From: Phaeocystidibacter marisrubri | Lineage (GTDB): Bacteria > Bacteroidota > Bacteroidia > Flavobacteriales > Schleiferiaceae | Direction of reading: 5' to 3' | Length of the DNA: 64,000 bases | NCBI RefSeq assembly: GCF_008933165.1 | Contig: NZ_WBVQ01000001.1 | Span: 1,116,001 to 1,180,000 of the forward strand | Part shown: one piece after another, positions 5,195 to 11,996 of the stretch | Layout: each line of letters opens with the position of its first letter | Position numbering within the stretch: position 1 is the first letter of the stretch | Made by a program: the position numbers and the translations under genes | The notes under the pieces: model-generated | Told to the model about the DNA's origin: nothing | Seen by the model: the letters and a program-made list of their open reading frames with translations, nothing else | Databases searched by the model: none

Positions 5195-7555
5195 TTACTG
5201 AATTACGAATCGCTGGATCCCAATACGCTCTCCTTGAATGATATAGATACCTTTGGGGAGTTGTGATACATCGATGTGATCAACTTCCTCTTCAGAAAGG
5301 TGGATCTTTCCATGGATGTCGAAGATGGTTACATCATCACGAACATCCCAGTACAGACTATTACTTGAAGGAACGGGATAAACGGGGAATGCCCTACTTT
5401 TTGCAATACTCTCTGGAAGTCCAATAGATCCACTCCAATCGTGTGCGTACAATCCTGTGCCCGCTCCCACGAGTAGTTCATCGTAGTAGAGAACATTGAT
5501 TTTTGTTCCTACTGGATAGGAATACGCCAATGTCCAAGAACCTACTGCGCTATCTATAGGGTGACTATATATCTCATGATCTCTAGCTGTGAATATATAG
5601 CCATCTCCGCTGGTTAAGGCGGTTGGAACTGCACCCGTAGGACCTACAATATAACTCCAAGTACTGGACGCTATATCTTTAACATATATACGATTAGGAG
5701 GATTTATTGCAGAAGAGGTTCTATACACTGCCAACAAGCTATCTCGGCCACTGGTAAGACTTAACTTGTAAATACCATCGGTGGCACCGAATGCACTTTC
5801 AGCCGTCTTGGTCCGTGATCCCGATCCGCTTTCTTCAATTCGATAGATACCATAATATCCGCTGGTCATTGGATTTGAAGCAAGGGATACATAGAAAACC
5901 GACTTCCCGCTTTCTTCAACAGCCACAACATCCGTTGCATCTACATCCATTCCCGGCGCCCCAGCAACGATCATCTCCTGTGTCCATGTCACACCACCAT
6001 CCGTTGAAACAAAGATTCCTCCATCATCCGTATTCTCTAAGGTATATGTCGCATAGACAATGTTTGGATCTAAAGGAGACACCGCCAGTCCAGTCACACG
6101 CGTACCAATTCGTGGGAAGTTATAGGTTCCACCGTGTGTGCCGCCCATCATGGGGTCAAACACCAATGTCCACCCATCAGGAGCCGAACTCGTAGGAGCC
6201 CCGCCACTTTCTGTTTTATAAATTCTGCCATTGCCAACGTATACCGTTAAACTATCCGAAGGGTCAATGGCTACAGAGTAATAAGGTGAGCCGTCACCCC
6301 TTGGAAATATGGGATCACTCCATAACGGCGTGCTACTTTTATAAGCAGATACTTTGCGAATACCCGATTTACTTGCAAACCATCCAGTGGCGTACGAATC
6401 TGTCATGTCGATGCCATTCACTTGTACCGCAGTGAGCCCTAGATTGGCTCCCTTTACCGTGTCGGCTGCATAGGTTGACACACCCAACCCTACATTCGTT
6501 GTAATGAACGTCGTACCCTGATTGTACATATCAATTACCACAACACCATCGTTTGCTCGGTTATTGTTGCCCGTATAAGCCCGTCCAATCTCCCTCCAAC
6601 TTCCAGGTGCACCAATGGAATCCGAAAAAGCAACCCCGCAGTAAACCGCATATCGTACGGCACCAACCGCGGTGAAGGCAAAATTAGGACCTGGTGTTCC
6701 ACCGGGAGGGCCGGGAAGCGCAAAATCAGAAGTATTCCAAGTCAGACCATTATCAGAAGAAATCGCGATCTTTTTATCGGTTGATGGGGGTGCGCCGAAA
6801 ACAGGAGCCCCTGCTACATACCAATCTCCCGTTGGGGATATTCCAAAAGTGATCCATTCAATATTGGGATCTACTGGTGCTGGATTAACAGCGCTTGAAA
6901 TGCTTGCACCAGACGACAAACTGTGGATATTTGCCGCTATTTTCATTTGATAAGGCGTTGTTCCTCCTTCAAAAAGGTACAGGTGGTTGGTGAGTGGATC
7001 TACAATCATTTTCGGCGCCCCATTGAATTGGTGCGTGAGCCCCATGCCTCCGCTGTTTGTTAGCCCCCCCGAGGTGTTCAAGGTTCCCCAAACCAATGAA
7101 TCATTGGATGTTGGGGTCATTCCATTCAAAACGGCCACAAAAGTATTCGTCTCGATAATGAAGTTCTTGGCCATGTTCAATACGGAAGTGGCAGATGATG
7201 CAAAAGGGTCTACTTTATAGATGGTGCCATTCGCTAAAAAGAAGGCTTCTCCAGTGGTTTCAAAACCTTGTACAGCATGAACGCCGCTTCCATATCCATC
7301 GTCCCAATCTGCAGCTGGAACGGGATGAACCGAATCGTAAATAGCGTAGCCACTGGAATATCGAATGTCCATGTAAAAAAGTGAGTTGGCACTTTCGGTA
7401 GAAAAATAGAGTCGTGATGCTGAAGGACCAGTTACAATTTGATCCATAGCCAGCACTCTTCCTCCATAAACTCCTTGAGGAATGGGTGCAGATAGCGTTT
7501 GAGCAGAGACCGCCAGAGAAGACAGTCCCAATATGAGGGAATAGACGTGTCGCAT
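5195..7555 (-). CDS. T9SS-exported beta-propeller (BNR/Asp-box) protein
   Basis: A 786-residue secreted protein. It begins with a signal peptide (MRHVYSLILGLSSLAVSAQ). The middle is a beta-propeller with Asp-box motifs such as SSDNGLTWN and STDGGVTWT, as in sialidase/VPS10-like folds. The last 70 or so residues form a T9SS type A sorting domain (VYPVPSSN, then VTIFDIHGK, LPKGIYII and IQRFVIQ). It should be exported to the cell surface or medium and have the tail removed. No catalytic function can be assigned; Asp-box propellers occur in hydrolases and in binding proteins. It converges with mnmE and diverges from the ankyrin gene. Confidence 0.88.
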   Translation of the reverse strand: MRHVYSLILGLSSLAVSAQTLSAPIPQGVYGGRVLAMDQIVTGPSASRLYFSTESANSLFYMDIRYSSGYAIYDSVHPVPAADWDDGYGSGVHAVQGFETTGEAFFLANGTIYKVDPFASSATSVLNMAKNFIIETNTFVAVLNGMTPTSNDSLVWGTLNTSGGLTNSGGMGLTHQFNGAPKMIVDPLTNHLYLFEGGTTPYQMKIAANIHSLSSGASISSAVNPAPVDPNIEWITFGISPTGDWYVAGAPVFGAPPSTDKKIAISSDNGLTWNTSDFALPGPPGGTPGPNFAFTAVGAVRYAVYCGVAFSDSIGAPGSWREIGRAYTGNNNRANDGVVVIDMYNQGTTFITTNVGLGVSTYAADTVKGANLGLTAVQVNGIDMTDSYATGWFASKSGIRKVSAYKSSTPLWSDPIFPRGDGSPYYSVAIDPSDSLTVYVGNGRIYKTESGGAPTSSAPDGWTLVFDPMMGGTHGGTYNFPRIGTRVTGLAVSPLDPNIVYATYTLENTDDGGIFVSTDGGVTWTQEMIVAGAPGMDVDATDVVAVEESGKSVFYVSLASNPMTSGYYGIYRIEESGSGSRTKTAESAFGATDGIYKLSLTSGRDSLLAVYRTSSAINPPNRIYVKDIASSTWSYIVGPTGAVPTALTSGDGYIFTARDHEIYSHPIDSAVGSWTLAYSYPVGTKINVLYYDELLVGAGTGLYAHDWSGSIGLPESIAKSRAFPVYPVPSSNSLYWDVRDDVTIFDIHGKIHLSEEEVDHIDVSQLPKGIYIIQGERIGIQRFVIQ

Positions 7556-7720: not shown

Positions 7721-7751
7721 TTTGCCATATGGACTGTACAACTTAAGTTTG
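7721..7751 (+). promoter_or_regulatory. Consensus Bacteroidota promoter of the ankyrin/DUF2271/PepSY module
   Basis: TTTG (7721-7724) and TAAGTTTG (7744-7751) are separated by exactly 19 bases and match the Bacteroidota housekeeping consensus TTG-N19-TAnnTTTG. Transcription would start near 7757, giving a leader of about 28 bases before the GTG start at 7785. Confidence 0.7.
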
Positions 7752-7784
7752 CACTTTATTTTTAATTAGTCTAAATAATAAGAA

Positions 7785-9281
7785 GTGAAACTAAGTTCTA
7801 TTATAGTCGCACTTACTCTGAGTATGACATCAGCATTTAGTCAGACAGAGAACCGCCTGCTGGACAAAACTTTCTGGCAATCGCAACCGACCATTCAACA
7901 GGTTTCACAGCTCGTGGAAGCCGGAAATAATCCAGCAGAATTCAATCGTTGGCACTTTGATCCGATGGTATTGGCTCTTTTGAATGAAGCTCCAATTGAG
8001 GTCATTGAATACTTGTTGAATCAAGAAGGTAATACCGTTGATAAGCGTACACACGACGGTAGAATCTATGCCCATTGGGCCGCCTACAAGGGAAATCAGG
8101 CCGCTTTAGAACGGTTTATTCATGAAGGTAGTAATGTTACTAAACTCGACGATCACGGATTTACAGTTGCCACATTTGCAGCTTATGCAGGTCAGACGAA
8201 TCCAGACCTTTATGATTTAATGATTTCAGCTGGTTCGAACCTCAAGACAGAGGTGGATTTGGATGGAGCTAACGCCCTCCTCCTTATCACCCCTCACCTT
8301 TCTTCACTAGACAAGCTCGATTACTTTATTGAAAAAGGTCTACCTCTAAATAGCACCAATAATCAGGGATACAATGCTTTCGATTACGCAGCGAAATCAG
8401 GAAACATCCATGTAATGCAAGCACTAATAGAGGCTGGGATTGATTTTCAATCCATAAGGAAAGATGGAGGTAACGCGACAATAATGGCGAGTAAAGGAAT
8501 GCGCCGAGCTCCAAATGGGATAGCGGTTTTTCAGTTTTTGAAAAGTGTTGGGGTGGATCCAGCCGTTACGACTTTGAATGGCGAAAACGCGTTGCATCTC
8601 CTCGCATCTTCATCTTCAGACTTAGAAGTCTTTCGGTATTTCATATCCGCTGGACTCTCGCCTGATGCTTCAGATGAATTGGGAAATACGCCTCTCATGA
8701 AAGCGGCTGCTAGAAATAGCGTGGACGTGGTAGAGCTCCTCACCAAGACATCGACCGACATCAATGCGACAAATAGCAACGGTGAATCTGCACTCTCAAT
8801 GGCGGTATCTGGAAATTCACTGGAAGTTGTTGAGCTACTCATTCAATTGGGTGCCGATGTCCATGTGGTAGATATCAATGGAAACAACCTGTCTTACTTC
8901 CTTTCGGAATCATTGATTTCGGGTGATCAGGCTCGATTTGAACAAATCATGAACGCCTTGGAATCCGCTGGATTCGACTTCGGCACCACTTCACCAAATG
9001 GAGATAATCTCTTCCACTTAGCGGCTCAGACGGGAAGTGAAGTATTGATAAAAGCGGCGCTGCAACATGAATTAGATATAAATGCCACTAACGGAGAGGG
9101 ATTAACCCCTCTTCACATAGCCGCACTTAAGGCGAATGACGATCAAATCCTAAAGCTGCTCATTTCAAATGGCGCCAACCTCCATAGCACGACAGAGTTT
9201 GGAGAAACACCATACGATCTGGCTCTTGAAAACGAAGTATTGCGTGCTCAGGAAATCAATCTCAGCTTCTTACAAGACTAA
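7785..9281 (+). CDS. Secreted ankyrin-repeat protein
   Basis: A 498-residue protein starting at GTG 7785; an in-frame stop at 7779-7781 rules out any earlier start. A signal peptide (LSSIIVALTLSMTSAFSQ) directs it out of the cytoplasm. Roughly 12 ankyrin repeats follow. They show the usual pattern, for example DELGNTPLMKAAARNSVDVVELL, with the turn G-x-TPLH-x-AA in GLTPLHIAALKAND. Ankyrin repeats bind proteins and have no activity of their own. It is the first gene of a module with DUF2271 and PepSY genes, twelve bases upstream of the next start. I infer that it may scaffold the extracytoplasmic redox partners. Confidence 0.9.
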   Translation: MKLSSIIVALTLSMTSAFSQTENRLLDKTFWQSQPTIQQVSQLVEAGNNPAEFNRWHFDPMVLALLNEAPIEVIEYLLNQEGNTVDKRTHDGRIYAHWAAYKGNQAALERFIHEGSNVTKLDDHGFTVATFAAYAGQTNPDLYDLMISAGSNLKTEVDLDGANALLLITPHLSSLDKLDYFIEKGLPLNSTNNQGYNAFDYAAKSGNIHVMQALIEAGIDFQSIRKDGGNATIMASKGMRRAPNGIAVFQFLKSVGVDPAVTTLNGENALHLLASSSSDLEVFRYFISAGLSPDASDELGNTPLMKAAARNSVDVVELLTKTSTDINATNSNGESALSMAVSGNSLEVVELLIQLGADVHVVDINGNNLSYFLSESLISGDQARFEQIMNALESAGFDFGTTSPNGDNLFHLAAQTGSEVLIKAALQHELDINATNGEGLTPLHIAALKANDDQILKLLISNGANLHSTTEFGETPYDLALENEVLRAQEINLSFLQD

Positions 9282-9293
9282 CACATCCACCCC

Positions 9294-9776
9294 ATGAAAA
9301 GAAACACAATATTGGCGCTACTCGCCATCACACTCATCTTTGGCTTCAAGAGCGACACCACTGAATCAAAGAGTTTCAAGTGTATGATTCAAATGACGAA
9401 TTATCAGGGAGAAGGTGCATACGTTGTAATTTCCCTCATCAATCCAGAAGGCGATTATGAGCGAACCCTTTACATCTTGGGTGATGATTCAGAATGGTAT
9501 CACTCTATTCCAGAGTGGTGGGATTACTTCGGCAAAGAACCTCGCAACGTGGATGGAATCACAGGAGCAACCTTAGCGGGTGGAGAACGCAGCATTAGTA
9601 TTATTGAAATTGATGAAAGCGTGCTCAATGCGGGATATAAATTGCGTTTTGAAACCGCGGTTGAAGAAGTGGGATATCATACGAGTGATGTAGAGTTTCC
9701 GCTGACTACAGAGAATGTTTCAGGCAAATACGAAGGAACCGGCTTCATCCGATACGTTCGAATGATTCCGAACTAA
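9294..9776 (+). CDS. DUF2271 periplasmic protein with candidate flavinylation motif
   Basis: A 160-residue exported protein: N-terminal hydrophobic signal (residues 5-18), then a compact domain resembling DUF2271. Residues 87-93 read DGITGAT. This fits the D-x-x-(S/T)-G-A-T motif at which ApbE attaches FMN covalently to the last threonine (here Thr93) in NqrB/NqrC and FMN-binding domains. DUF2271 proteins are known to occur near PepSY membrane reductases. The gene sits 12 bases after the ankyrin gene and 12 bases before the PepSY fusion. I infer that it accepts electrons from that reductase outside the membrane. No apbE gene is in the window, so modification is unproven. Confidence 0.75.
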   Translation: MKRNTILALLAITLIFGFKSDTTESKSFKCMIQMTNYQGEGAYVVISLINPEGDYERTLYILGDDSEWYHSIPEWWDYFGKEPRNVDGITGATLAGGERSISIIEIDESVLNAGYKLRFETAVEEVGYHTSDVEFPLTTENVSGKYEGTGFIRYVRMIPN

Positions 9777-9788
9777 TTTCCACATCAC

Positions 9789-11996
9789 ATGACCAGCTCC
9801 ATTTGGAGATACAGTCATCTTGCCTTGGCTGTATCTTCTTTTGTCTTCATCTTTCTTGCATCCGTCACTGGAATCATCCTCTCCTTTGAACCCATACAGT
9901 ATACGCTAGAGGTCAGTTCTGAAGCCCGAGCCATGGAAGACGTGTCTTTGGCCCAAACTCTGACTGTACTTCGTGAGAAATACGATGAAGTACTCGACAT
10001 TCAAACGGACGAGCATCACTACGTGTCCGCAACTTTACTGGATAAAGAGGGAAACTATGGTCAGTATTACATCCATCCCAAAACGGGAAAATTATTGGGA
10101 GAACAGATTGAAACAGCTCCAATTTACGAGTGGTGCACCAACCTTCATCGTTCTCTATTTCTGAAAAGTACGGGAAGATTCTTTGTGGGGCTCTCTTCCT
10201 TCCTCCTACTCCTTATCACCGTTTCTGGTGTAATCCTTATTATCAAGAGACAACGCGGATTACGGAATTTCGCTGCCAAAATCATCCGAGAGAACTTCTT
10301 TCAATATTTCCACGTCTATCTAGGCCGGCTCGCACTGGTGCCTATACTCATCATCACGATCACTGGAACCTACCTCTCATTGCTTCGGTTTGAACTCATT
10401 CCCGATTGGGAGACAGAAACCACCACACCAGTATCGACATCTTCTTCAGAACCTTCGTTAGATCCATCTGAATTTCCCGTATTCAATCAACTGTCCATTG
10501 CTGATATACGAAAAGTAGAGTTCCCGTTTTCCGACGATGCAGAAGACCGTTATCTCATCCAATTAAAGGATGTTGAAATCTCTGTGAATCAATACACAGG
10601 AGTCGTAGAGAGCGAAACCCCCTTTCCATTCACACAAATCGCCCAAAACCTAAGCACGGCCTTACACACGGGACAAGGAAGCGTTGCTTGGTCTATTGTT
10701 TTGGCACTTTCATGTATCTGTATCACGTTCTTCATTGCATCGGGTTTTATAATGACCTTCCGCCGATTGAAAGGCAAGACCCGGAACAAGTTCGGGAAAG
10801 ATGAAGCTGAGATCGTTCTGTTGATCGGTTCTGAATCGGGAACAACGGGCCAATTTGCCAAATGCTTTGCAGAAACATTAATGCAGGCGAATAAACGTGT
10901 CTACATCGATGAGTTGAATCACTACAGTTCCTATGCTTCCATGAAGCATCTGGTGGTGTTCACAGCCACATATGGCACTGGGGAAGCGCCATCCAATGCA
11001 AGGAAATTCTCCAAGCTGATTGCCTCAACTGATCCAAACCAACCCTTCAACTATGCCGTGGTTGGCTTTGGTTCACTCTCCTATCCTAACTTTTGTCAAT
11101 TTGCTTTTGAAGTGGAGGACATGCTTTCAGCCCTGCCTATGAGTCGTAAGGCATTGGACACCCACACCATTCACAATAAATCCTGGGAATCGTTCCATCA
11201 ATGGACCGTGCAATGGGCAGATTTATTCCCACTCGAATTGGCGGTCTCACAACCCGAACTTGCCATTAAAGCAAAGAAGAAGGAACACACTTTCCATGTA
11301 CTTCGTTGCACCGCCATCGAAAACCGAACGGATAACACCTTCACGTTAGAATTGGAAAGCCCAACGGCCAAGTATGTGTCTGGAGACTTATTGTCTATTC
11401 TTCCTGAGAACCATACACACGAGCGACTGTACTCCATTGCGCAAACTCAGGCAGGTACTTTACTTCTATCCATCAAGCGACATGATTATGGTATTTGTTC
11501 CACCTACTTGAGTAATCTCAAAAGTGGAGATCGACTTTATGGTTCAATTGTGCGCAACCGGGAATTTCACTTCAATTCCAAGTCTTCGAAGACAGTTATG
11601 ATAGCAACTGGAACTGGGATAGCGCCCTTTTTGGGAATGATAGAAAACAACTCGAAACACCGAGAAATAGATTTGTACTGGGGTGGCCAGACCTCTCAAT
11701 CTTTCCGTTTATATGAAGGCATTCTCTCCGAAGCTTTTCAAGACCACAGATTGAGTGAGTTGAGGGTCGCCTATTCACGCGAAAACGCTTCTAAAGTTTA
11801 TGTCCAAGACCTTCTTCTTAGAGATCAGGTCAAAATAGCCGAAGCATTTCAATCGGGTGCGCAGTTTATGATTTGTGGTTCGATAGCCATGCAAAAGGGC
11901 GTGGTAGAGACGCTTCATCAGATTACTCTTGAACGAAATAACAAGCCCTTAAGCTACTATCAGAACAAGGGTCAGCTCAAAATGGATTGTTACTAA
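9789..11996 (+). CDS. PepSY transmembrane / flavodoxin / ferredoxin-NADP reductase fusion
   Basis: A 735-residue membrane flavo-reductase. Residues 1-330 form a PepSY-associated membrane region with four transmembrane helices (about 10-32, 130-152, 180-200 and 300-324). His10, His120, His175 and His293 lie at or near the helix ends and are candidate heme ligands. Residues about 341-480 are a flavodoxin domain (SESGTTGQFA, TATYGTGEAPSNA) for FMN. Residues about 500-735 are an FNR-type FAD/NADPH reductase (RLYSIAQT, ATGTGIAPFLG, final CY). The order resembles sulfite reductase or P450 reductase flavoproteins joined to a heme membrane module. I infer electron flow from cytosolic NADPH through FAD, FMN and heme to the extracytoplasmic side, where ferric iron or the DUF2271 protein could be the acceptor. 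Confidence 0.88.
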   Translation: MTSSIWRYSHLALAVSSFVFIFLASVTGIILSFEPIQYTLEVSSEARAMEDVSLAQTLTVLREKYDEVLDIQTDEHHYVSATLLDKEGNYGQYYIHPKTGKLLGEQIETAPIYEWCTNLHRSLFLKSTGRFFVGLSSFLLLLITVSGVILIIKRQRGLRNFAAKIIRENFFQYFHVYLGRLALVPILIITITGTYLSLLRFELIPDWETETTTPVSTSSSEPSLDPSEFPVFNQLSIADIRKVEFPFSDDAEDRYLIQLKDVEISVNQYTGVVESETPFPFTQIAQNLSTALHTGQGSVAWSIVLALSCICITFFIASGFIMTFRRLKGKTRNKFGKDEAEIVLLIGSESGTTGQFAKCFAETLMQANKRVYIDELNHYSSYASMKHLVVFTATYGTGEAPSNARKFSKLIASTDPNQPFNYAVVGFGSLSYPNFCQFAFEVEDMLSALPMSRKALDTHTIHNKSWESFHQWTVQWADLFPLELAVSQPELAIKAKKKEHTFHVLRCTAIENRTDNTFTLELESPTAKYVSGDLLSILPENHTHERLYSIAQTQAGTLLLSIKRHDYGICSTYLSNLKSGDRLYGSIVRNREFHFNSKSSKTVMIATGTGIAPFLGMIENNSKHREIDLYWGGQTSQSFRLYEGILSEAFQDHRLSELRVAYSRENASKVYVQDLLLRDQVKIAEAFQSGAQFMICGSIAMQKGVVETLHQITLERNNKPLSYYQNKGQLKMDCY

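Follow-up and report, generated by a model that had tools for sequence, protein, structure and literature searches.

The three-gene unit described here, part of the window (the whole stretch of DNA analysed, 64,000 nucleotides), probably carries electrons out of the cell and reduces captured iron. It encodes an ankyrin-repeat protein, a DUF2271 protein and a membrane-bound reductase (Table 1), and in the Bacteroidota sampled the ankyrin protein is the obligate and invariable partner of stand-alone DUF2271. We consider it likely that the unit forms an iron-regulated periplasmic reductase, in which a chain of NADPH, FAD, FMN, two haems and covalently bound FMN would lead to iron, with the ankyrin protein as partner.

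Table 1. Features of the three-gene unit and its upstream region (positions in the window)
Feature	Position	Strand	Remarks
Bacteroidota-type promoter TTTG-N19-TAnnTTTG	7721..7751	+	Exact match
Fur-like palindromic operator ATTTTTAATTAGTCTAAAT	7758..7776	+	Two mismatches to ATTTAGA-N5-TCTAAAT; between promoter and start codon
Exported ankyrin-repeat protein, 498 aa, GTG start	7785..9281	+	Pfam ankyrin, E 1e-51
Most conserved ankyrin patch K-x-T-H-D-x-R-x-Y-x-x-W-A-A, residues 87-100	8043..8084	+	Columns invariant or nearly so
Exported DUF2271 protein, 160 aa, candidate ApbE substrate	9294..9776	+	PF10029, E 1.5e-37
Flavinylation motif DGITGAT, residues 87-93	9552..9572	+	Candidate acceptor Thr93 at 9570-9572
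PepSY-flavodoxin-FNR membrane reductase, 735 aa	9789..11996	+	PF03929, PF00258, PF00175 (PepSY_TM + Flavodoxin_1 + NAD_binding_1)
PepSY membrane part, residues 1-330	9789..10778	+	PF03929, E 7e-37; haem-ligand candidates H10, H120, H175, H293
Flavodoxin (FMN) domain, residues 346-453	10824..11147	+	PF00258, E 6.9e-16
NAD(P)H-binding domain, residues 604-706, with SRENASKVYVQ	11598..11906	+	PF00175, E 1.8e-12; motif found across orthologues

The three open reading frames share one strand and are separated by gaps of 12 nt, as the first-pass annotation had described, and the promoter that it had called near-perfect is in fact an exact match to the Bacteroidota-type pattern, which occurs twice in the window versus 0.21 matches expected by chance. 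The intergenic region upstream is common to the operon and to a divergent gene (5195-7555, minus strand) for a 786-aa protein with a T9SS sorting tail.

A sample of 392 Bacteroidota genomes was searched, as whole genomes, for the ankyrin protein, DUF2271 and apbE; ankyrin orthologues were defined by a full-length profile at E ≤ 1e-60. DUF2271 exceeded the cut-off in 37 genomes, in 32 as a stand-alone protein, in four as an apparent fusion and in one (G427) as a weak outlier. The ankyrin profile matched exactly the 32 genomes with stand-alone DUF2271, neither protein occurring alone, and the gene order ankyrin-DUF2271-PepSY was found at every locus of readable length. Because these genomes are related, they do not represent 32 independent events; nevertheless, co-occurrence in 32/32 rules out a chance neighbourhood of the ankyrin gene. 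The triad is distributed over several families, including Dyadobacter and a Spirosoma plasmid, and is absent from the two genomes that share the window's genus and from most members of its family. In a plasmid collection, DUF2271 was matched by 97 records, mostly from Pseudomonadota, among which an orthologous ankyrin was found in Spirosoma only; in three of the Pseudomonadota plasmid regions, DUF2271 is preceded by a small PepSY gene or by nothing of the kind.

Several loci depart from the usual arrangement. One genome carries a tandem pair of ankyrin orthologues (G341:C129:89-3027). A second, orphan DUF2271 gene (L071:8585-9076), without ankyrin or PepSY, adjoins genes for a protein resembling DUF6607 and for a TonB-receptor-like protein. 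Four loci (L064, L065, L066 and L069) have open reading frames of ~500 aa that end in DUF2271 and look like the ApbE-DUF2271 fusions already known (eLife 2021, PMC8238504); after each comes a short PepSY-like protein, and no ankyrin was found at these loci.

Within the ankyrin protein, His90 and Tyr95 are invariant in the orthologue alignment. Its predicted structure is confident (pLDDT 93) and its fold ordinary: a fold search with the model gave only generic ankyrins and DARPins as top matches. An injected effector was considered and rejected, since the matches to Dot/Icm-type NCBIfam models cover the repeats only and score far under the cut-off. The first-pass annotation had cast the ankyrin protein as a scaffold; its place in the system is borne out by the strict co-conservation (32/32), whereas the scaffold role was a guess. 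Co-conservation demonstrates membership, not function, and the protein may be a dock or a cargo binder.

Regulation points to iron. As the ideal operator we took ATTTAGA-N5-TCTAAAT, a form suggested by Bacteroidota iron genes, which was afterwards tested. With up to two mismatches, a box lies upstream of the first gene in 22 of 28 triad operons versus four of 86 neighbouring control genes, the conservation looked for in a Fur regulon (Fisher p 2e-14, a value made optimistic by relatedness), and none of 297 shuffled half-site patterns performed as well, the best giving three. Of the four control genes that carry a box, two start like TonB receptors. The window's own box, which has two mismatches, is weak evidence if taken alone. 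In the window's genome, eight boxes occur at one mismatch or fewer versus two for a reversed control, and 206 versus 230 at three or fewer; because the latter scan is no better than its control, the analysis relied on close matches and on the comparison across genomes alone. Boxes with zero to two mismatches in this genome precede feoB, hemA/hemH, nqrA, a c-type cytochrome gene, an imelysin gene and an HmuY/TonB haem-uptake operon, as well as genes without a clear iron role. Fur-family genes are present, and Fur would be the putative binder of the operator.

The neighbourhood of the triad in relatives is often rich in uptake genes. The triad follows a TonB receptor and a lipoprotein at six loci (L009, L044, L045, L056, L059 and L067), and at three others (L010, L012 and L013) it follows a TonB receptor together with HmuY genes in one apparent operon; often, too, it stands alone with the box directly upstream. 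The triad-adjacent lipoprotein had no Pfam or PDB match, and we do not claim it as XusB. The window's operon contains neither apbE nor a TonB receptor. Elsewhere in the same genome (L124:4490-9902, G000:C1), a haem-uptake operon with two iron-type boxes upstream encodes an HmuY-like T9SS protein, a DUF6607-like protein, a TonB receptor and an HmuY-like lipoprotein, so that what forms one apparent operon in relatives is here split between two units with the same kind of box.

This setting bears on what the ankyrin protein might do. It is conceivable, although we think it unlikely, that the protein is a carrier of haem or iron cargo, which would take over the cargo of TonB receptors and HmuY while the PepSY-DUF2271 chain reduces the bound iron. 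The apparent operons with HmuY-type haem uptake, the HmuY operon under the same box in the window's own genome and the invariant His90 and Tyr95 would all suit a carrier, as would two catalase-supporting ankyrin proteins cited in PMC7567364, Cj1386 of Campylobacter, described there in haemin trafficking, and the periplasmic AnkB of Pseudomonas. However, the triad also occurs alone or beside TonB receptors other than those of the HmuY type, and the likeness to Cj1386 is one of functional analogy only. Less probable still is a different periplasmic redox task, such as oxidative-stress repair or respiration, with iron-type control reflecting only the cost of the haem cofactors. A box of the same kind before nqrA and the c-type cytochrome gene, that is, before haem, flavin and respiratory rather than uptake genes, would agree with such a task, as would the frequency with which the triad is found alone; against it stand the apparent operons that the triad repeatedly forms with TonB receptors and HmuY, and the Caulobacter homologue, which is controlled by Fur and has a chelation phenotype (PMC12004947). 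The iron-type operator and the haem/TonB context make reduction of ferric or haem iron the likely purpose of the unit; in the first-pass annotation, iron had come up only in the proposed checks.

The reductase itself is as first annotated, a PepSY protein with four helix-end histidines fused to FMN and FAD/NADPH domains, a description upheld by Pfam matches, an alignment of 29 orthologues and the predicted hydrophobic segments. Four such segments (residues 13-31, 134-152, 181-199 and 303-321) have at their ends H10, H120, H175 and H293, which are invariant in the 29 orthologues and make up the two pairs of haem-ligand histidines known from PepSY proteins of the FoxB type. A profile of the PepSY region matches FoxB (PDB 7ABW, E 4.5e-6), the only solved relative found. 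The C-terminal half carries conserved FMN, FAD and NADPH motifs of the P450-reductase/CysJ type. In two small-genome relatives (L012:4862-6265 and L013:5550-6959), PepSY is joined to a flavodoxin-like part and the FAD/NADPH domain is missing; there, the electron donor must be a separate protein.

The exported DUF2271 protein and its DGITGAT motif were likewise recovered as annotated, the signal-peptide cleavage site being weak by eye in this protein and a clear A-Q site in many orthologues. A fold search with its model gave no match at E ≤ 0.001. The motif has the [S/T]GA[S/T] form of ApbE substrates, here D-x-x-T-G-A-T, and it ends in Thr or Ser in each of 30 aligned homologues; four homologues carry a degenerate version (DGIVGET or DAIVGET at L053, L063 and L071, DGITGET at L009), so flavinylation may not be universal. 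A check for apbE, which had been suggested at the outset, revealed a single gene (E 1.5e-80) ~5 kb downstream of nqrC-F. NqrC of this genome (L008:302-997) has VDGISGGT, where Gly replaces the Ala of the flavinylation motif; this sequence is close enough to VDGITGAT that one ApbE plausibly serves both proteins. Across the sample, apbE is present in 32/32 triad genomes versus 256/392 overall (chance ~6e-7 if the genomes were independent, which they are not), and of 28 loci read over a wide span, 14 have it next to the triad. It is improbable that the window's DUF2271 protein goes without flavin and acts in the PepSY reductase as a structural or binding subunit: the degenerate motifs and the location of apbE outside the operon would allow it, but the unbroken conservation of Thr or Ser, the presence of apbE in every triad genome and the experimental flavinylation of the domain by ApbE in Amantichitinum ursilacus (PMC8238504) argue against it.

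The identity of the acceptor varies with the position of apbE. At the 14 triad loci with an adjacent apbE (within L046-L068), the motif ends in Ser (GAS) throughout; among DUF2271 genes without one (the window, L009-L013, L044, L045, L047, L048, L053, L059, L063, L067 and L071), it ends in Thr in 15 of 16, the exception being L014. On the PepSY tree, this split amounts to about two changes and may represent shared ancestry; it could also mark a switch to the Nqr complex's ApbE. A link between a Ser acceptor and an adjacent apbE was considered and set aside, as it rests mainly on one clade.

Together, these observations suggest the following route. NADPH would donate electrons to the FAD of the cytosolic FNR domain, from which they would reach the FMN of the flavodoxin domain. 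Two haems would then carry them across the inner membrane, the cytosolic one probably held by H10/H175 and the periplasmic one by H120/H293. The next acceptor would be FMN on Thr93 of the exported DUF2271 protein, attached covalently by the genome's only ApbE, which would serve NqrC too. Once reduced, the DUF2271 carrier would hand the electrons to ferric iron, a ferric siderophore or haem iron delivered by TonB receptors, with FeoB the likely importer. As a dedicated partner in the periplasm, the ankyrin protein would dock this carrier either on the reductase or on incoming cargo. In iron-replete cells, Fur or a Fur-like repressor would shut the operon off. The first electron steps follow from known families, and the last are suggested by regulation and synteny. 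A route of this kind, from NADPH through haem to an external covalent FMN, had been put forward in the first-pass annotation; it is substantiated as regards apbE, the canonical motif, the haem ligands, the FMN, FAD and NADPH motifs and the proof for DUF2271 elsewhere, whereas covalent FMN and the order of flow are what we infer from these. On balance, we lean slightly towards a broader statement, namely that in Bacteroidota flavinylated DUF2271 works only with a dedicated exported ankyrin protein, in a three-part complex that would introduce an undescribed class of periplasmic ankyrins in the reduction of iron or haem iron. Reductases and flavinylated carriers are known. For the question of how a flavoprotein outside the cytosol is brought to its electron donor and to its iron substrate, an ankyrin protein that matches the distribution of the stand-alone carrier, has an iron-type operator and often lies beside haem or TonB receptor genes is a concrete candidate partner, and proteins annotated only as 'ankyrin repeat domain-containing' would thereby be linked to iron reduction in Bacteroidota.

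Flavinylation of DUF2271, PepSY/DUF2271 clusters and a link to iron have been published (PMC8238504, PMC11334425, PMC12004947), and because the domain is an established ApbE substrate found in such clusters, the proposed electron route is of a known kind. The closest counterparts are the PepSY-like flavinylation systems of Meheust et al. 2021 (PMC8238504), with a PepSY reductase, DUF2271 with [S/T]GA[S/T], ApbE and a link to iron, many of whose clusters have an NAD-binding domain with the PepSY reductase. As in these, the PepSY gene is clustered with a flavinylation component (PF03929 next to PF10029) and an apbE is available in the genome; unlike them, the unit has an invariable exported ankyrin, and apbE is remote in the window's genome. 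The word 'ankyrin' is absent from the main text of PMC8238504, and a text search limited to one library of open-access papers found none describing an ankyrin protein combined with PepSY or DUF2271. FoxB, a PepSY siderophore reductase of Pseudomonas, is matched over the first three segments and shares the four conserved histidines, whereas in the window's protein the PepSY part continues into a flavodoxin and an FNR domain and has DUF2271 and ankyrin as partners. The XusABC xenosiderophore system of Bacteroides (PMC13142918) has in common with some relatives of the triad that a TonB receptor and a lipoprotein accompany a PepSY reductase of the inner membrane, although neither DUF2271 nor ankyrin is described there. 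Caulobacter CCNA_03155-03159 (PMC12004947), a Fur target with a role in fitness under EDTA or iron chelation, also combines a flavin-dependent reductase, a PepSY protein and DUF2271; it differs in having DUF4198, with no ankyrin mentioned. The main papers on the system omit the ankyrin protein, and what the present analysis adds is the ankyrin partnership, the conserved iron-type operator and the TonB/HmuY context.
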